Shown piece by piece: positions 11,406 to 61,250 of a stretch of DNA of 64,000 nucleotides. Within the stretch, counting starts at the first letter, position 1. Every line of letters starts with the position of its first letter. The notes under the pieces are model-generated. The model saw nothing but the letters and a program-made list of their open reading frames with translations. It did no database searches and had not been told where the DNA came from. Source of the DNA: Hymenobacter psychrophilus (GTDB taxonomy: Bacteria; Bacteroidota; Bacteroidia; Cytophagales; Hymenobacteraceae); contig NZ_FNOV01000002.1 in the NCBI RefSeq assembly GCF_900107135.1, positions 248,001 to 312,000 on the forward strand. The letters run 5' to 3'. The position numbers and the translations under genes are program-made.

Positions 11406-12308
11406 TCAGCTGCGCGGATGGAACTGGGTGATGACCTGGCGCAGGTAGTCGCGGTCGAGGTGGGTATAGATTTCGGTAGTCGTGATGCTTTCGTGACCCA
11501 GCATTTCCTGCACAGCCCGCAAATCGGCCCCGCCCTCGATTAAATGCGTGGCAAAGCTGTGGCGAAAGGTGTGCGGACTGATGCTTTTGGCAATGCCGGC
11601 CTTTGCGGCGGCGGCCTTGATGATGTGAAAAATCATGACCCGCGAGAGGCCCGCGCCGCGCTTATTGAGAAACACGGTGTCTTCGTGGCCGGGCTTGATG
11701 TCGAGGTGGGCGCGGATGCCCTGCAGGTAGAAGCCCAGGTGTTTGAGCGCGTCGCGGCCGATGGGCACGAGCCGCTCCTTGTTGCCCTTACCGGTTACGC
11801 GCACGAAGCCCTGGTCGGCGTAGAGGTTGGACAGGCGCAGGCCGGTCAGCTCGCTCACGCGCAGGCCCGAGCTGTAGAGCACCTCCAGCATGGCCCGGTT
11901 GCGGGTACCTTCGGGCGTGCTCAGGTCGATGGCGGCCAGTAGCTGTTCTATTTCAACGTAGCTGAGCGTGTCGGGTAGCTTGCGGCCGGTTTTGGGGGCC
12001 TCCAGCGTGTCGGTGGGGTCGATGGAGAGCATATCCTCCATAATCAGGAAGCGGTAGAAGGCCTTGATGCCCGACAGGGTGCGCGCCTGCGAGGTGGCCT
12101 CCAGGCCCAGGCCACCCAGCCAGGTGAGAAAGTCGCGCAGCAGCCGGGTGGTTACCTGCTGAGGCGAGGCCGGCAACCGTTCCAGCTCCAGGTACTGGCG
12201 CAGCTTGTGCACGTCGCGGGCATAGGCCTCCACCGAGTTGGCCGACAACGACTTTTCGAGCTGCAGGTAGCCCTCGAACTGTTTAATGGCAAGGTTCCAG
12301 GGCGACAT
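11406..12308 (-). CDS. xerD: Site-specific tyrosine recombinase XerD
   Basis: Protein of 300 residues. The N-terminal SAM-like core-binding domain (FEGYLQLEKSLSANSVEAYARDV) is followed by the catalytic domain with GLRVSELTGL (Arg near 149), HTFRHSFATHL (His-x-x-Arg near 249), LGHESITTTEIYTH (second His and the nucleophilic Tyr near 281). With XerC it resolves chromosome dimers at dif, activated by FtsK. The ATG at 12308 is preferred over a TTG two codons upstream. The promoter box TACCTTTG on the reverse strand (12334-12341) lies inside one arm of the palindrome shared with aroQ. Confidence 0.95.
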   Translation of the reverse strand: MSPWNLAIKQFEGYLQLEKSLSANSVEAYARDVHKLRQYLELERLPASPQQVTTRLLRDFLTWLGGLGLEATSQARTLSGIKAFYRFLIMEDMLSIDPTDTLEAPKTGRKLPDTLSYVEIEQLLAAIDLSTPEGTRNRAMLEVLYSSGLRVSELTGLRLSNLYADQGFVRVTGKGNKERLVPIGRDALKHLGFYLQGIRAHLDIKPGHEDTVFLNKRGAGLSRVMIFHIIKAAAAKAGIAKSISPHTFRHSFATHLIEGGADLRAVQEMLGHESITTTEIYTHLDRDYLRQVITQFHPRS

Positions 12309-12333
12309 ACGCAAGGGGAATTAGAGAACCAGG

Positions 12334-12341
12334 CAAAGGTA
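12334..12341 (-). promoter_or_regulatory. -7 box TACCTTTG for xerD
   Basis: Exact TAnnTTTG match 25 bp upstream of the xerD ATG, inside the left arm of the palindrome. Confidence 0.65.
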
Positions 12342-12441
12342 CTGTCATCCTGAGCAGCGCGAAGGACCTTTTTACGGTAGCAAGACGTAACAACGATTTG
12401 TGCTACCGTAAAAAGGTCCTTCGCGCTGCTCAGGATGACAG

Positions 12442-12449
12442 TACCTTTG
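12442..12449 (+). promoter_or_regulatory. -7 box TACCTTTG for aroQ
   Basis: Mirror image of the xerD box, inside the right arm of the palindrome, 40 bp upstream of the aroQ ATG. Confidence 0.65.
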
Positions 12450-12489
12450 CCTGGTTCTCCAGTCCCCTAGTCCCCAGCCCTCCTACCTC

Positions 12490-12939
12490 ATGCAAATCCT
12501 GCTGCTCAACGGCCCCAACCTCAACCTGCTGGGCCGGCGCGAACCCGGCATCTACGGCACCCGCTCGTTTGAAGACTACTTGCCCGAATTAGTCGAGGCT
12601 TTTCCGCAGTTCGAGTTGGTGTATTTCCAGAGCAACCACGAGGGCGGCCTCATCGACAAGCTGCACGAAGTGGGTTTCAGCTACCACGGCATCGTGCTCA
12701 ATGCCGGCGGCTTCACGCACACCAGCGTAGCGCTGGCCGATGCGGTAGCCGCCATCGGCTCGCCCGTAGTAGAAGTGCACCTGAGCAACCTGCACGCCCG
12801 CGAAGAGTTCCGCCAGCGCAGCCTGCTGGGCCGCCACTGCGCCGGCAGCATCAGCGGCTTCGGCCTCGAAAGCTACCGGCTGGCCCTGCACTACTTCGAC
12901 GGCCAACGCCCCAAACGGGTAGGGTTCAAGGTGAAATAG
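12490..12939 (+). CDS. aroQ: Type II 3-dehydroquinate dehydratase
   Basis: Protein of 149 residues, standard for the dodecameric type II enzyme of the shikimate pathway (3-dehydroquinate to 3-dehydroshikimate). Visible motifs are NGPNLNLLGRREPGIYG (catalytic Arg/Tyr loop), FQSNHEGGLIDKLH, NAGGFTHTSVALADA and EVHLSNLHAREEFR (active-site His). Its last codons and stop (AAG GTG AAA TAG) form the start of the palindrome at 12928-13050, so the Val-Lys ending is shared with several unrelated genes here. It is divergent from xerD. Confidence 0.95.
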   Translation: MQILLLNGPNLNLLGRREPGIYGTRSFEDYLPELVEAFPQFELVYFQSNHEGGLIDKLHEVGFSYHGIVLNAGGFTHTSVALADAVAAIGSPVVEVHLSNLHAREEFRQRSLLGRHCAGSISGFGLESYRLALHYFDGQRPKRVGFKVK

Positions 12940-14884: not shown

Positions 14885-15025
14885 AGAAGCGAGGAGCTAG
14901 AATGCCTGTCATTCTGAGCTTGCGAAGGACCTTATAGCGCCTGAACAGCCGTAACAACGACTCGTTTTAACGTTATAAGGTCCTTCGCAAGCTCAGGATG
15001 ACAGGCATTCTAGCTCCTCGCTTCT
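14885..15025. repeat. Intergenic palindrome, 52-bp arms with one mismatch
   Basis: Arms 14885-14936 and 14974-15025 pair over 52 bp with a single mismatch. They share the core TCATYCTGAGC...GCGAAGGACC with the xerD/aroQ palindrome, and the loop keeps CCGTAACAACGA. It fills the space between convergent marC and the antiporter, so it may act as a two-way terminator. Confidence 0.93.
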
Positions 15026-22671: not shown

Positions 22672-23096
22672 AGCGCCACCCGCTACGGCTGACCGGCGTG
22701 GCCGCGCTACTCCTGACCCTGGCGCTGTCGTTGGAAAGCTGCTTTACCGAGCGCCAGAACGAAGGCGCGCAACTCTACGCCGCCCATTGCAGCAGCTGCC
22801 ACGGCGACCAGGGCCAGGGGCTGGAGCGCCTCATTCCGCCCGTAGCTGCTTCCGACTATGTGGCAAAGCACCGGGCCGAGCTGCCCTGCCTCATCCGCAA
22901 AGGCATGCAGGGCGATATTGTTGTCAATGGCATTCATTACAACCAGATAATGCCCGGCCACGAAGACCTTACCGACTCACAAATCACCATCCTGCTCAAC
23001 TTTGTGCAAACCAGCTGGGGCAACACCAACCAGATCTACACCATGCGCGAAACCTCCGAGCTACTCGGCCGCTGCAACGGCTCGGATGGGCAGTGA
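22668..23096 (+). CDS. Monohaem cytochrome c lipoprotein
   Basis: Protein of 142 residues with an N-terminal signal and a lipobox-like LESC. CSSCH near residue 40 binds haem covalently and IMPG near residue 94 offers the distal Met. GEGLERLIPP-like and HEDLTDSQITILLNFV segments fit class I cytochrome c. Together with the SCO1 gene this suggests a periplasm-facing electron carrier, possibly feeding a cytochrome oxidase encoded elsewhere. The reading frame ends at the edge of a TTAGTGG heptamer array. Confidence 0.9.
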   Translation: MKRHPLRLTGVAALLLTLALSLESCFTERQNEGAQLYAAHCSSCHGDQGQGLERLIPPVAASDYVAKHRAELPCLIRKGMQGDIVVNGIHYNQIMPGHEDLTDSQITILLNFVQTSWGNTNQIYTMRETSELLGRCNGSDGQ

Positions 23097-23131
23097 TTAG
23101 TGGTTAGTGGTTAGTGGTTAGTGGTTAGTGA
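23097..23131. repeat. Heptamer array, about 5 x TTAGTGG
   Basis: Four exact units plus a fifth with one change, starting one base after the cytochrome c stop codon. It is followed by AAGGAATGTCATTCTGAGCG, the start of the next palindrome. The same heptamer-plus-palindrome composite recurs at 31059-31227. Confidence 0.93.
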
Positions 23132-23137
23132 AGGAAT

Positions 23138-23247
23138 GTCATTCTGAGCGAAGCGAAGAATCTCGCGTGCCAAAGTAATTTCTGATAGCAGGGCTACTAC
23201 TGCACGCGAGATTCTTCGACTTCGCTTCCGGCTGCGCTCAGCATGAC
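23138..23247. repeat. Intergenic palindrome of the GTCATTCTGAGCGAAG family
   Basis: GTCATTCTGAGCGAAGCGAA on the left and its mirrored copy on the right (with a 13-base insertion in the right arm) enclose GAATCTCGCGTGC/GCACGCGAGATTC. It lies between convergent cytochrome c and hydrolase genes. Confidence 0.82.
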
Positions 23248-26838: not shown

Positions 26839-27858
26839 ATGGCCCTGTTTGACTTTCTAAAAAAGAAGCCCGAAGATAACGCTTCGGCCCCTGCAACCCC
26901 TACTACGGCCGCCGAATCGGGGGTCGAGCCGACTGCGCCAGCTGCCCCGGCGGCCCCAACTGAGCCAGCCGGCCCGCGCTACAAAGGCTCCAACTACCAG
27001 ATGCCCGCCCCGGAGGCCCCGGCCCCCATGCCGATGATTCCGCCGGCCCCGCCCATTGCCATGCCTAGCATGATGGGTGGCCCGGACGAAAGCCAGATGG
27101 ACGCCCAGGCCGCGCACGCCGCTTTCCAACCCACCAACATTCTGGAGCAGCTGCTGATGCAGGCCTCCTACGACCCGCAGTTTCGTTCGCCTTTCTACCA
27201 AGCGCTGCTCGGCGAAGAGCTGGCAGTGGTGCTGGCCGCCAAAGAGGGCCAGGAGCCCGGCGAAGTTACACCTACCGAGGGCATGGAAATTCAGTTGCAG
27301 GCCCTGCACGACGGCAAAATAGCCATCTTCTCCTCCGTAGAGCGCATTTTCGACAACGGCGCCGTACCCGAGGGCAGCGTTACCTACATGCGCCTGCGGG
27401 GGCACGACTTCTTTAGCATGGTGCAGGATGCCGACTGCGCCATCAACCCTTTCTCGGCGGTAGGTAAGCTGATGCCGGCCGACGAAATTAAAGCCCTGAT
27501 GGCCGGCCAGCTCTTCGATGCCGGTCCACCCCAGGATGTGCAGGTAACCCTGCACCAGCCCGAGCCCGAGCCAACGGCCCTGCTCGACGGCCTGCGCGCG
27601 TACAGCGCCGCCCAGCCCAGCATTCGTGCCGTGTACCTGGCCGAAATGCGCATGCAGAACGTGCCTGAACAGTCGCGCCTGCTCGTGGCCTTCGATACCG
27701 AAGAGACTGACCCGGCCTTCCTGCAGGAACTGGGCCCCATCATTCAGGGTAATATCGCCGAGGCTCAGTTCGTCGACCTCATGCTGATTGACCCCACCTC
27801 CGAAGAGCCGCTGGTTCAGTACCTGCTCACTACGGAGCCGGTGTACGCCCGGGCTTAG
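26839..27858 (+). CDS. SseB family protein with Pro/Ala-rich N-terminus
   Basis: The ATG at 26839 gives 339 residues. Residues 1-90 are low-complexity Pro/Ala/Met sequence after a short ALFDFLKKK start. From about residue 95 comes an SseB N-terminal domain (FQPTNILEQLLMQASYDPQF, IQLQALHDGKIAIFSSVERIF, INPFSAVGKLMPADEI), then an SseB C-terminal-like domain (AQPSIRAVYLAEMRM). SseB relatives are linked to serine sensitivity or used as type VII/III associated proteins, and the precise role is unknown. The stop codon TAG falls in the first unit of a GCTTAGA heptamer array. Confidence 0.82.
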   Translation: MALFDFLKKKPEDNASAPATPTTAAESGVEPTAPAAPAAPTEPAGPRYKGSNYQMPAPEAPAPMPMIPPAPPIAMPSMMGGPDESQMDAQAAHAAFQPTNILEQLLMQASYDPQFRSPFYQALLGEELAVVLAAKEGQEPGEVTPTEGMEIQLQALHDGKIAIFSSVERIFDNGAVPEGSVTYMRLRGHDFFSMVQDADCAINPFSAVGKLMPADEIKALMAGQLFDAGPPQDVQVTLHQPEPEPTALLDGLRAYSAAQPSIRAVYLAEMRMQNVPEQSRLLVAFDTEETDPAFLQELGPIIQGNIAEAQFVDLMLIDPTSEEPLVQYLLTTEPVYARA

Positions 27859-27894
27859 AGCTTAGAGCTTAGAGCTTAGAGCTTAGAGCTTAGA
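27853..27894. repeat. Heptamer array, 6 x GCTTAGA
   Basis: Six exact 7-bp units. The first unit encodes the last alanine codon and the TAG stop of the SseB-like gene. A short palindrome-type terminator follows directly. Confidence 0.97.
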
Positions 27895-28503: not shown

Positions 28504-29916
28504 TTACTCGGGGGCGCCTTCGGGCAGCACCGGTACTTCCAGGCTGGCGCGGGTGCTGGCCGACAGCGTGACGCAGCTCAGCATAAATACGGCAAAGCCC
28601 ACGAGCAGCGGCAGCCGCCAGGCCGGAACCACCACTTGGGGCCAGCGGGCCGGATGCGGCAGTCCGAAGCATACCAATCCGTAGATAAGCACGTGCAGCG
28701 AGATAAAGAAGCGGCACTCCACCACCAGCGGCACCGAAGCCAGGGTGGGCAGCACCAGCGCCGCCACCAGCAGCCAGTGAGCGGGCCGCAGCAGCGGGGC
28801 CCGGCGCACCGCTAGCAGCAGCGCCCCAAAAAACACCGCATAGTGCAGCAGCGCCAGCCCGCTGTTGGGCGAGTACACCCGCGTCAGGTAGGGGCTCGAA
28901 TACAGCACATCGAGGCCGTTGAACAGGTGTCGGCAGAACAGGGCCGTCATGTCGAGCGGGTGCTCGGCCACCAGCCGAGCGTAGTTGGCCAAGCTGGTGA
29001 CCTGCGAGGAGGCACGGTTGGCCAGCACGAGGCGGCCGGCATTATCGAAGTAGAAAACCTGCGCTTTGGGGTAGGCGCCCCCGATGTTGGTTTCGTACTT
29101 CTGCACGCCCAGGCCCTCATTAAGATGCCACAGGTATAGGTTATCCTCGCCGGCTACCGCGTACTGCCCGCTTTTATCGGTATTGAGCACGAAGGGGCTG
29201 GCCGAATCGAAATTGTGCAGGTTGAGGGCCAGCTGCGGGGCCATTACCAGCAGCGCCCCCACCACCAGGGCAGCCCAGCCGGCCAGTTGCCGGCCGCGGG
29301 CCGCGGGCTGCGGCCGCAGGAGCCGAAACAGCAGCACGCAGGGCACGGCCAGCATATAAATCGGCCGGATATAGATGGTACCGATCAGCAGAAAACCGCC
29401 CAGCAGTAGCGCCGCCGGATGCCGGGCGCGCAGCACGAGCCCCGTTCCGCCCAGCAGAAACAGCAGGGCCGGGAAGTCGGAGAGCAGGAAGTTGAAATGG
29501 TCGCGCCAGAACAGGAAGCCCAGCGCAATAAACACCAGCCGCCGCCCCAGCAACACGGGTTGCCGGGTAAGGGCCTGCCAGCAGCGCGGCCCCACCACGC
29601 CAAACAGCAGCGCCGCCAACACGGCACCCTCGGTTTTCACCAGGCCCATCTGGTAGCCGGGCAGCCAGCTGCGCTCCAGGGCCGTGAGGGGGTAGTTGAG
29701 CAGCGGGTACAGGTAGCCGCGCATCTGCGAGGTCATGTTGAAGAGCGAGAACTTACCGTCCTGCTCCATATCGTGGGCAAAGCGCCAGTACAGCTCCGAA
29801 TCGTAGTAGAGCGCGTGGAACTTGGAAAACGCCAGGTGAATGCCGAATAGCAGCAGCGCCGCCAGAAAAGCCCACCAATCGGGATGTTTGCTTGCCGCCT
29901 GCCACGCCTTGCGCAT
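28504..29916 (-). CDS. Polytopic membrane protein, GT39/PMT-like
   Basis: The ATG at 29916 gives 470 residues with about 11 membrane helices. The first loop has FHALYYDSELYWRFAHDMEQDG, an acidic pattern (D-x-E) like the first catalytic loop of GT-C glycosyltransferases. A later lumenal segment (FVLNTDKSGQYAVAGEDNLYLWHLNEGLG) is soluble. A glycosyltransferase acting on lipid-linked sugars is the best guess; a protein with unknown transport role is the alternative. It is transcribed from the TATCTTTG box at 29998-30005 and is divergent from yihY. Confidence 0.72.
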   Translation of the reverse strand: MRKAWQAASKHPDWWAFLAALLLFGIHLAFSKFHALYYDSELYWRFAHDMEQDGKFSLFNMTSQMRGYLYPLLNYPLTALERSWLPGYQMGLVKTEGAVLAALLFGVVGPRCWQALTRQPVLLGRRLVFIALGFLFWRDHFNFLLSDFPALLFLLGGTGLVLRARHPAALLLGGFLLIGTIYIRPIYMLAVPCVLLFRLLRPQPAARGRQLAGWAALVVGALLVMAPQLALNLHNFDSASPFVLNTDKSGQYAVAGEDNLYLWHLNEGLGVQKYETNIGGAYPKAQVFYFDNAGRLVLANRASSQVTSLANYARLVAEHPLDMTALFCRHLFNGLDVLYSSPYLTRVYSPNSGLALLHYAVFFGALLLAVRRAPLLRPAHWLLVAALVLPTLASVPLVVECRFFISLHVLIYGLVCFGLPHPARWPQVVVPAWRLPLLVGFAVFMLSCVTLSASTRASLEVPVLPEGAPE

Positions 29917-29997
29917 ATGCTTATTTGTCACTGTTGCGGAGCCAATCGGCTCACCGGATATAAAGTCTGATTTAGCCGGAGTTTCAGGCCCGGCCGG

Positions 29998-30005
29998 CAA
30001 AGATA
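29998..30005 (-). promoter_or_regulatory. -7 box TATCTTTG for the GT-like gene
   Basis: Exact TAnnTTTG match on the reverse strand, about 80 bp upstream of the ATG at 29916. Confidence 0.55.
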
Positions 30006-30118
30006 GTCGCCCAACTTGCCCAGCCGCACGAAATTCCCCATTTATAGCTCGGCCGGCGCGTATCTTCGCGCTGCACTCCCGCCGGCCGGATTCCTTTCTG
30101 CCTCCGGTGCCTATCCTG

Positions 30119-31069
30119 ATGACCCACCTTGCTTCGCCGCAACCGGCCCGCCAGCCCTTTTCCGTGTTTGTGCTGCTGCTGCGCCGGGCGGCCCGCGAAT
30201 TTGGCAACCACGACCCACTGCGGCTGGGGGCGGCCACGGCCTTTTTCGCCACTTTCGCCCTGCCGCCCATCGTCATCATCCTCATTCAGGGGCTGGGCTA
30301 CCTGTACTCGGCCTCGCAGGTGCGGGTGCTGCTGCTCACCAAACTCTCGCACCTGCTGGGCGCCTCGGCGGCCGGGCTCGTCGAGCAGATTCTGCGCAAC
30401 GTGACCGACGTGCAGCGCAGCCGGCTGGTTACGTGGCTGGGCTTCGCGTTTCTACTCTTCATTGCCACTACCCTGTTCGGCGTTATTCAGCACTCACTCA
30501 ACCAGATATGGCAGGTACGGGTGCGCCGCAGCACCGGCCAGCTGCGTACCGTGCTCAAAGAAAGGAGCCGTTCACTGGGGTTGCTGCTGGCCACGGGGTT
30601 GCTCTCGATCCTGGCCTTTCTGTCGGACGCGGCCCTGGGCTTTGTGGCCCACTACGCCGACTACTTCGATGCCAACTTCAGCAATTTCGTGCTGGAGTTG
30701 GGCAACCGGCTGTTTTCCTGGCTGATTCTGGTGGGCTGGTGCGGGGTAACGTTTCGTAACCTGAGTTCGGCCAAAGTACCGCGCAAGGCCGTCTGGCGCG
30801 GGGCCCTGCTCACGGGCAGCCTCATCAGCCTGGGCGAAAGCGTCCTGGGGCTGCTGCTGGTGCCGCGCAACCTGGGCCCCATCTACGGGCCGGCCTCCAG
30901 CATTGTGCTCGTGCTGCTGTTCGTGTTCTATTCGGCCATGATTTTCTACTTCGGCGCCTGCTTCACCAAGGCCTACGCCCAGCACGCGGGCCTCGATATC
31001 CGCCCCAAAAAATCGGCCGTCCGCTACAAACTGGTCGATGTGCTGGAGGAAGAGGTGGTTAGTGGTTAG
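30119..31069 (+). CDS. YihY/BrkB-like membrane protein
   Basis: The ATG at 30119 gives 316 residues. Six membrane helices and the family segments LRLGAATAFFATFALPPIVIILIQG, FAFLLFIATTLFGVIQHSLNQIW and LGPIYGPASSIVLVLLFVFYSAMIFYFGACF identify the YihY/BrkB family (once taken for RNase BN). The function is unproven. The last residues EEEVVSG and the stop are read from a TTAGTGG heptamer array, so the C-terminus may differ between strains. TATCTTCG at 30061-30068 is a possible promoter box. Confidence 0.87.
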   Translation: MTHLASPQPARQPFSVFVLLLRRAAREFGNHDPLRLGAATAFFATFALPPIVIILIQGLGYLYSASQVRVLLLTKLSHLLGASAAGLVEQILRNVTDVQRSRLVTWLGFAFLLFIATTLFGVIQHSLNQIWQVRVRRSTGQLRTVLKERSRSLGLLLATGLLSILAFLSDAALGFVAHYADYFDANFSNFVLELGNRLFSWLILVGWCGVTFRNLSSAKVPRKAVWRGALLTGSLISLGESVLGLLLVPRNLGPIYGPASSIVLVLLFVFYSAMIFYFGACFTKAYAQHAGLDIRPKKSAVRYKLVDVLEEEVVSG

Positions 31070-31100
31070 TGGTTAGTGGTTAGTGGTTAGTGGTTAGTGG
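31059..31100. repeat. Heptamer array, 6 x TTAGTGG
   Basis: Six exact units. The array begins inside the yihY coding sequence and provides its stop codon. AAGGAACGTCATTCTGAGCG follows, giving the same composite as at 23097-23247. Confidence 0.97.
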
Positions 31101-31102
31101 AA

Positions 31103-31227
31103 GGAACGTCATTCTGAGCGAAGGCGCAGCCGGAGTTGAAGAATCTCTACTGCTTCGTTGTAACAATTCAGACGAAGCGGTAGAGATTCTTCGACTCCGG
31201 CTGCGCCTTCGCTCAGAATGACGTTCC
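31103..31227. repeat. Intergenic palindrome, 56-bp arms with two mismatches
   Basis: Arms 31103-31158 and 31172-31227 enclose a 13-nt loop. Same family as 19637 and 23138, with the inserted CGCAGCCGGAGTTGAAGAAT segment resembling the 23-kb copy. It lies between two co-directional genes, unlike most other copies. Confidence 0.93.
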
Positions 31228-46661: not shown

Positions 46662-46747
46662 GAGGTAAGATGGGGTATTTGCGCCTGATAGTGTTTCCCG
46701 CAGAGGCGTGTAGAGGTTTCCACAGAGGGACACAAAGGCTAGCACGA

Positions 46748-46846
46748 TGTAGAGACGCATATTTGCGTCTCGTCGTTGCTGATGTAGACCGATGCGCACC
46801 GCCGTTCTACATCAGCAACGACGAGACGCAAATATGCGTCTCTACA
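46748..46846. repeat. Perfect 41-bp palindrome (GTAGAGACGCATATTTGCGT type)
   Basis: Arms 46748-46788 and 46806-46846 are exact inverted repeats with a 17-nt loop. The right end overlaps the stop codon of the RNA methyltransferase gene (46842-46844). It belongs to the GTAGAGACGC family, another copy of which is at 61120-61233. Confidence 0.97.
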
Positions 46847-48020
46847 CCACCTTCCTGGTGCCGCGGTACAGCTCGTACTTGAGCAGGCGGCAGTCGATGG
46901 GGCCGTTGTAGAGCGGGATGCGGCGGCTGGCTTTGAGGCCCACGCGCTTGGCGGCCTCTAGGTTGCCGGTGAACAGGTAGGCGTCGTAGCCCTGGAAGCT
47001 GGTTTTAAGCGTGTCGCCGATGGTTTTGTAGAGCGCGTCCATCTCGGTTTCCTCCCCGATTCGCTCGCCGTAGGGCGGGTTGGTGAGCACGATGCCGGGC
47101 TCGGCGCGGGCAGGCGCGGCGGCATCCTTCACGTCGCGCACGCCCAGACGGATGAAGTCTTCGAGGTCGGCGGCGGCTATGTTTTCGCGGGCCAGCTCGA
47201 TAAAGTCCCGGCTCAGGTCGGAGCCACCGATGTAGCACTGGGGCTCCTCCAGGCGCATCTGCCGGGCATCCATCTGCACGGTTTCCCAGAGCACGGCGTC
47301 GAAATCGGCCCAGTGCTCAAACCCGAACTTGCCCTGGTGGTACAGCCCCGGCGCGATGCGCTGGGCAATGAGGGCGGCCTCGGTGAGGATGGTGCCCGAA
47401 CCGCACATGGGGTCGACGAGCGTCGTTTTGCCATCCCAGCCCGAGAGCAGCAGCAGGCCGGCGGCCAGGGCCTCATTGAGCGGGGCCACGTTGGTTTGCT
47501 GGCGGTAGCCGCGCTTGTGCAATGACTCGCCCGAGGCATCGAGGCTGAGTACCACCTCGTTTTCCAGCATGTGCAGATGCAGCCGGATATCGGGGTTGCG
47601 CACATCCACGTTGGGCCGCTCGCCGGTGCGGTTGCGGAACTGATCCACGATGGCGTCTTTGGTGAGCTGGGCCACGAACAGCGAGTGCTCCAGGTTGGAT
47701 TTGTTGACGACGGCCGTAATGGCAAACGTCTGATCCTGGCGCAGGTACTTGCTCCAGTCGATGCGGCCCACCTCGCGGTACAGGGCTTTTTCGTCGGGGG
47801 CCGAGAAGCCGGCGAAGGGCCGCAGGATGCGCACGGCGGTGCGGCACCACAGGCAGGCTTCGTAGAGCAGCTGCTGGTTGCCGCTGAACTCGATGGCCCG
47901 CTGCCCCACCTTCTCGATTTTGGCGCCCAGGTCACGCAACTCCTGGGCCAGCACTTCTTCCAGCCCGAACTGGGTGGTGGCGGTCATGTAAAACGGTTCG
48001 GCGCGGCGGTTGGCAGACAT
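46842..48020 (-). CDS. RlmL/YcbY-like RNA methyltransferase with THUMP domain
   Basis: Protein of 392 residues. THUMP-type N-terminal part (FGLEEVLAQELRDLGAKIEKVGQRAIEFSG, then AITAVVNKSNLEHSLFVAQLTKDAIVDQF), then a Rossmann methyltransferase with LVDPMCGSGTILTEAALIA (SAM site) and the catalytic motif TNPPYGERIGEE. RlmL modifies G2445 of 23S rRNA; the RlmK half is absent, so this is the single-domain type (RlmL- or Trm14-like). GACCTTTG at 48043-48050 fits a -7 box and supports the ATG at 48020. The last codons are in the palindrome at 46748. Confidence 0.92.
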   Translation of the reverse strand: MSANRRAEPFYMTATTQFGLEEVLAQELRDLGAKIEKVGQRAIEFSGNQQLLYEACLWCRTAVRILRPFAGFSAPDEKALYREVGRIDWSKYLRQDQTFAITAVVNKSNLEHSLFVAQLTKDAIVDQFRNRTGERPNVDVRNPDIRLHLHMLENEVVLSLDASGESLHKRGYRQQTNVAPLNEALAAGLLLLSGWDGKTTLVDPMCGSGTILTEAALIAQRIAPGLYHQGKFGFEHWADFDAVLWETVQMDARQMRLEEPQCYIGGSDLSRDFIELARENIAAADLEDFIRLGVRDVKDAAAPARAEPGIVLTNPPYGERIGEETEMDALYKTIGDTLKTSFQGYDAYLFTGNLEAAKRVGLKASRRIPLYNGPIDCRLLKYELYRGTRKVV

Positions 48021-61119: not shown

Positions 61120-61233
61120 GTAGAGACGCCTAGTGGCGTCTTGTCGTTGAATGGCTTGCACATGTAACATCCGACGATTCCGTTCAACCGAAGGCCAGCG
61201 GAGCGAACGACGAGACGCCACTAGGCGTCGCTA
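61120..61233. repeat. Palindrome, 29-bp arms (GTAGAGACGCCTAGTGGCGT type)
   Basis: Arms 61120-61148 and 61205-61233 pair with two mismatches. It is a second copy of the GTAGAGACGC family (compare 46748), between convergent hydrolase and monooxygenase genes, and suits a two-way terminator. Confidence 0.88.
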
Positions 61234-61250
61234 CACCGTTCCACCAACTG

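Follow-up and report, generated by a model that had tools for sequence, protein, structure and literature searches.

The gap between xerD and aroQ

In the window, the 64,000-nt stretch of Hymenobacter psychrophilus DNA analysed here, a gene for an xerD-type tyrosine recombinase and aroQ, the gene for a type II dehydroquinase, are divergently oriented, and the gap between them holds a long palindrome (Table 1). An earlier note, made from the sequence alone, had described the arms of this palindrome as perfect over 58 bp; perfect they are, but their length is 59 bp, and of the 8 positions just outside them 3 are mismatched. Folded as a single DNA strand, positions 12316-12467 reached -83.7 kcal/mol (z -24.3), a stability equalled by 0 of 200 shuffles. 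A scan of 452 kb of this contig for arms of 20 bp or longer, with 85% identity or better and a loop no longer than 110, gave 89 palindromes, and none of the perfect ones is longer than the focal one, others having perfect arms of 57 and 54 bp; the same scan of a triplet-shuffled control found 0 palindromes. Rfam and tRNA scans of the window gave no matches, nor did a sigma-70 and terminator scan of the xerD-aroQ gap. Long palindromes are difficult to assemble and this draft genome consists of 45 contigs, yet an assembly artefact is hardly credible, as the outer flanks of the palindrome are unique and asymmetric, and long palindromes occupy the same gap in relatives sequenced by others.

Table 1. 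Coordinates of the genes, palindrome arms, half-sites, boxes and wings at the xerD-aroQ gap (window positions).
Feature	Position	Strand	Description
xerD-type tyrosine recombinase gene	11406..12308	-	ATG 12308; Pfam PF00589, PF02899
Left palindrome arm	12324..12382	+	59 bp
xerD-side wing	12324..12341	-	box + 10 bp beyond, locus-specific
Predicted -7 box of xerD	12334..12341	-	TACCTTTG; predicted transcription start near 12329
Left REP-like half-site	12342..12370	+	TGTC tag, type 1 (GTCATCCTGAGCNNNGCGAAGGACCTT)
Spacer between arms	12383..12400	.	18 nt
Right palindrome arm	12401..12459	-	59 bp, exact reverse complement of left arm
Right REP-like half-site	12413..12441	-	head-to-head with left half-site
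Predicted -7 box of aroQ	12442..12449	+	TACCTTTG; predicted transcription start near 12454
aroQ-side wing	12442..12459	+	exact mirror of xerD-side wing
aroQ, type II dehydroquinase gene	12490..12939	+	ATG 12490; Pfam PF01220

The core of the palindrome consists of two head-to-head copies of GTCATCCTGAGCNNNGCGAAGGACCTT. Searching the whole genome for GTCATYCTGAGCNNNGCGAAG with up to 3 mismatches, we obtained 358 half-site matches (171 + 187), compared to 4 (3 + 1) for the reversed control. A second type of half-site continues as GAAGAATCTC, and its copies (type 2) are tagged CGTC. Within 452 kb, the half-sites were arranged as 22 pairs and 21 singles. Both consensus half-sites fold, with 5 + 2 pairs flanking a tandem mismatch and A and T coming first, at energies no better than those of shuffles; the loop is 3 nt long, the tail is CTT or CTC, and in the focal half-site the first A-T pair is missing.

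We compared this repeat with the CGTC-tagged REPs reported from Bacteroidetes by Di Nocera, De Gregorio and Rocco (2013, PMC3733652), a paper whose main text contains 0 occurrences of Hymenobacter. As described there, the terminal CGTC is often changed to TGTC or CCTC, the stem is 8-9 bp long and opens with a complementary A and T at its first two positions, the loop is 4-5 nt, the tail is CCA-like, and the elements lie mainly between convergent or same-direction genes. Our repeat shares with them the terminal tag (TGTC at the focal locus, CGTC in type 2), the short stem that follows it, hundreds of copies, head-to-head dimers (with a spacing of 42 bp here, within 20-100 bp) and the lack of a dedicated transposase. 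It differs in the tandem G-A mismatch of its half-site stem, in its shorter loop and in its tail, which is not CCA, and the focal dimer, unlike those REPs, is found between divergent genes and beside two boxes. Since the tag, copy number and dimer form fit while the loop and tail do not, we place the repeat close to the CGTC-tagged family, as a candidate member. It also resembles REPINs with RAYT transposases (PMC3116915, PMC2817692), in that two inverted REPs form one hairpin unit present in many copies, but in that system the transposase is flanked by the same repeat, and we rejected a RAYT origin because the only Y1-transposase gene (PF01797) found in the genome sits among another repeat. 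In the 1.5 kb examined, CCCAGGG...CCCTGGG repeats stand on either side of this lone gene (L161, C36:154241-154582).

The other members of the family in the window had been said to lie behind genes, and so they do: the half-site pairs at 14908, 19641, 23138 and 31108 are each found behind at least one gene, the last of them only if the ORF at 29840-31069, which our crude gene caller dropped, is real. According to similarly crude gene calls, the 17 palindromes flagged as family members in 452 kb comprise 7 in tandem, 5 in convergent and 4 in divergent gaps and 1 within a gene, against a background of 179 tandem, 57 convergent and 53 divergent gaps. The flanks of 44 repeat pairs in 852 kb were mostly mirrored over a few bases only. 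Further repeats in the window include runs of tandem 7-base units (GTTAGTG and kin) at 23073-23144, 27845-27888 and 31042-31113, two of which adjoin palindromes and the like of which also flank palindromes in relatives, and GTAGAGACGC-type palindromes at 46744-46848 and 61120-61234, perhaps GTAG-tagged REPs.

Promoter-like boxes and the wings of the dimer

Each arm carries one box, the mirror image of the other and pointing outward to its own gene (aroQ or xerD), just as the earlier note had described. The boxes fit the Bacteroidota -7 consensus, TAnnTTTG at -12 to -5 of sigma-A promoters (PMC9723704), and begin 48 nt (aroQ) and 33 nt (xerD) before the start codons. Both distances fall within the range over which the box is enriched in this genome; in 537 upstream regions, the motif occurred 81 times in sense, 27 times in antisense and 18 times reversed, and it peaked 30-39 nt ahead of the start. 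The predicted starts of both transcripts lie in the outermost six bases of the arms, and the hairpin is contained in neither predicted RNA, so RNA structure should not maintain the arms. Long inverted repeats adjoining a Xer-family gene also bring to mind an invertible promoter operated by the neighbouring tyrosine recombinase, and invertible promoters are frequent in Bacteroidota. However, because the boxes lie in the arms and not in the 18-nt spacer, inversion would leave transcription unchanged, and in 60 of the 70 loci read the two genes stand back to back, with varied sequences between them; we give this idea next to no weight.

The 18-base focal wing, TACCTTTGCCTGGTTCTC, matched the genome exactly in the two arms only, and a relaxed search yielded two more matches at 3 mismatches, versus 6 for the reversed control. 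As the outer 18 bp of the arms have no other exact copy in the genome, the REP dimer sits between two promoter-like boxes, and arm identity continues outward from the dimer across both of them. Judged by sequence, the boxes belong to the locus and not to the repeat family.

We then turned to the same gap in relatives, the nearest by aroQ being H. terrestris, H. lapidiphilus, H. actinosclerus and H. aerophilus. From 100 genomes with an aroQ match, 70 loci were read, with a divergent xerD in 60 and none within the examined stretch in 10. After 8 gaps longer than 300 bp were skipped, the remaining 52 and 7 further ones made up a set of 59 gaps, 15 with a GTCAT dimer, 39 without GTCAT and 5 with GTCAT on one side. 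Exact boxes were present on both sides in 3 of the 15 dimer gaps (L031, L040, L198); in the 39 gaps without GTCAT, they were present on both sides in 5, on the aroQ side only in 2 and on neither in 32. Three gaps without the repeat (L041, L047, L048) have the two boxes apart, with unrelated DNA between them and unmirrored wings. The nearest relatives carry a T as the second base of the box. An origin of the boxes before the repeat is thus a moderately supported suggestion, with few species behind it. As for the proposal that the repeat had been captured as a divergent promoter, a box-flanked repeat in a divergent gap is what we find, but the boxes are outside the repeat family and other palindromes fill the same gap in relatives, and so the repeat seems to have been inserted between two promoters rather than recruited as one.

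Strong palindromes (score of at least 19; shuffles at most 11), of several families, were present in 19 of the 52 gaps, and the region between xerD and aroQ may be a hot spot for them. The repeat itself is of type 2 in six relatives, of type 1 here and in G092, and mixed in G087 (H. rubripertinctus), where the dimer upstream of aroQ (L042) has a left half of type 1 and a right half of type 2. Since the repeat type varies at this gap, fresh insertion is part of the story. A very stable 59-bp stem with both boxes within its arms could also act as a cruciform switch, supercoiling extruding the arms and coupling or shutting both promoters. We consider this very improbable, as only the 4 of 17 family-flagged palindromes mentioned above lie in called divergent gaps, and relatives with a mismatched or absent palindrome still keep both xerD and aroQ.

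Outside the dimer, the two wings of one species resembled each other more than wings taken from different species did. A permutation test that ignores kinship gave the 15 dimer gaps a within-species score of 10.77, against 7.23 (sd 0.58) with exchanged partners, a score reached in 0 of 5000 permutations, and the wings of 4 of the 15 (L031, L035, L036, L191) beat every cross pairing. All 59 gaps together gave 11.8 within species versus 5.87 +- 0.28 permuted (0 of 5000), with 18 of 59 beating all cross pairings, a set that mixes in the 39 gaps without GTCAT, where some wings are arms of other palindromic repeats (e.g. L166, L184, L196, L220). Upstream of aroQ in L184, for instance, the wings match at 36 of 37 positions, including a GC-rich palindromic repeat of another family. 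No excess of wing matching was seen in the five one-sided GTCAT gaps, and a test of wing pairing over the 12 bases that follow TTTG, confined to a nine-species clade, was not significant by itself (23811 of 362880 permutations reached the value). Across 15 orthologous palindrome pairs, 16 columns had changed in concert, versus ~0.7 expected under independent change, in a test that starts from detected palindromes and hence favours matched arms. The same 15 pairs contained 35 unmatched columns and the close relatives G004, G030 and G099 showed no concerted change at the xerD-aroQ gap, indicating that the arms also drift.

Boxed and mirrored repeats at other loci

For the repeat end followed by AG and TANNTTTG, this genome gave 11 matches and the set of 120 genomes gave 70, spread over 19 of them, with 0 for the control. 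When the spacing was left free (0-8), 12 of 19 matches in this genome stood at spacing 2, one inside a gene, and the control gave 5 in total. A search for other copies boxed in both arms, which the earlier note had proposed, found them at nine places in five genomes, the focal one included: two more here (C17:136156, which we term locus A, and C23:188096), three in G099 and one each in G016, G030 and G027. Gene direction was checked at the focal pair, at locus A with its orthologs and at C23:188096; the neighbouring genes are divergent at the first two.

Four species have the dimer at locus A, where its neighbours are a WD40 gene and a gene for a phosphopantetheinyl transferase. In G016 (H. 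aerophilus DSM 13606), 44 of the 45 wing positions at this locus are identical, and the mirror extends through both start codons (ATG), the outer 70 nt holding 1 mismatch; agreement is 29/45 in G099 and 23/45 in both G027 and G000, ten of these positions being the repeat end and the box. At another locus (locus B), G099 is boxed on both sides, and its kin G030 has a box on one side at that spacing and TACCTTTA farther out on the other. The events may have come in another order, for the REP dimer could have been inserted into the middle of a divergent promoter that was already palindromic. Such an order would accommodate the mirrored boxes of three gaps without GTCAT (L045, L179, L222), as well as the REP dimers within longer palindromes described in A. 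variabilis and H. neapolitanus (Di Nocera et al., PMC3733652), but it is unlikely given that L041, L047 and L048, without the repeat, have separate boxes and unmirrored wings, and that all four locus A species have the dimer and only one the far mirroring.

The third boxed locus of this genome, C23:188k, has a mirrored 17-base wing with the box TATCTTTG. Its neighbours, a glycosyltransferase gene and one for a polysaccharide deacetylase, run in the same direction, and Pfam finds nothing on the opposite frame. Since the left gene runs the same way as the right one, the mirrored left box serves no outward gene, and because it faces the end of the glycosyltransferase gene it speaks for copying over promoter selection. 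Under the latter, a single regulator would recognise both wings, or the wings would keep expression of xerD and aroQ in balance, and their similarity would be convergent. The constant spacing between repeat end and box, seen in the 12 of 19 matches at 2 nt, agrees with this, as do the 70 matches of GGATGACAG-TANNTTTG, a pattern that itself fixes the spacing. We nevertheless hold selection for equal promoters to be quite unlikely, as identity passes the box, and at locus A in G016 even the start codons, as C23:188k has its box mirrored on a side without an outward gene, and as we know of no shared regulation of xerD and aroQ.

In 852 kb on two contigs, 7 of 44 repeat pairs had at least 10 exactly mirrored bases beyond GTCAT, versus 0.37% of cross-copy pairings. 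The focal arrangement is as unusual as had been supposed: by crude gene calls on these contigs, mirrored wings occurred in 1 of 69 divergent gaps (80-300 bp), versus 37 of 271 tandem and 22 of 70 convergent ones, and they were accordingly rejected as a rule for divergent gaps. Terminators may explain part of the 22 convergent cases. In the window, a second palindrome (14885-15025) has a mirror reaching 23 bp past the repeat; the corresponding gap of H. terrestris is occupied by an unrelated palindrome whose long arms match, and that of H. lapidiphilus by a mismatched form of this unrelated one.

Proposed copying between the arms

The reading that we favour, at a probability of roughly 0.58, is that a REP dimer came to lie between divergent outward boxes and that template switching copied one arm, together with its unique flank, onto the other. 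The dimer of a dispersed TGTC-tagged palindromic repeat would provide a long hairpin-forming stem; a replication fork meeting this stem could lead the polymerase to switch template, and one arm, along with the unique DNA just outside the repeat, would then be copied onto the opposite side, making at least 18 bp of predicted promoter and leader identical at the focal gap. Promoter function gives no reason for the ten identical bases beyond the box, and these count for copying, as do locus B, the columns changed in concert and the predicted absence of the hairpin from both RNAs. Template switching is the mechanism that we infer; gene conversion would leave the same trace. Perfect arms had been taken to imply recent origin or correction between arms, and the comparison of species favours correction, through the wings and locus A, where it finds the copied arm extending past the repeat, as template-switch correction requires. 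Copying perhaps proceeded from the xerD side to the aroQ side: in G000 and G074, the aroQ-side wing was closer to the xerD-side wings of other species than to their aroQ-side wings (4.4 versus 3.6 of 12 and 4.2 versus 3.0 of 12, respectively), with the opposite trend in G016 (3.2 versus 3.8 of 12), whose xerD-side wing is common to G027, a genome from which the tree separates it with weak support.

Two further candidates were rejected. Loss of SbcCD as the cause of the many palindromes was not supported, as SbcD scored above the cut-off, with two SbcC stretches in one frame below it. A TA target-site duplication, considered because the box begins with TA, likewise found no support, since only 2 of 24 terminator-side type-1 ends begin with AGTA, one of them being C23:188k.

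Correction of quasipalindromes by replication template switching has been described in E. coli lacZ reporters (PMC7202029), in yeast, with homogenisation of inverted-repeat arms (PMC8604942), and for RNA hairpins (PMC8794818). As in those systems, one arm of an inverted repeat would have been rewritten from the other, leaving perfect arms; unlike them, our case concerns promoter and leader DNA beside a dispersed bacterial repeat and is drawn from comparison only. Our searches of the open-access literature turned up no paper on repeats of Hymenobacter, on mirrored divergent promoters or on template switching at REPs. Most likely, a known kind of repeat has had an uncommon consequence here, namely that two predicted core promoters are now exact mirror copies of each other by replication template switching.

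Palindromes with arms of at least 40 bp numbered 4.2 per 100 kb in 44 Hymenobacter loci versus 0.2 in 23 Pontibacter loci, and none were found in 2 Adhaeribacter and 11 other Bacteroidota loci, all of these loci being centred on aroQ and the sample thus not random. We tentatively suggest, at somewhat less than even odds, that the palindromic repeats of Hymenobacter seed fold-back copying and that divergent core genes such as xerD and aroQ repeatedly gain identical promoters by mutation, not selection.

It is already known that template switching repairs hairpin arms and makes multi-base mutations; that it carries promoters between neighbouring genes appears, from a limited literature search, to be undescribed. 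If the mirrored gaps are as they seem, they would represent natural events at several loci of one genus, whose direction and tract length can be compared. Identical divergent promoters need not imply shared regulation, and, if our reading is true, the promoter, leader and even start codon of one gene would have been copied onto its divergent neighbour.
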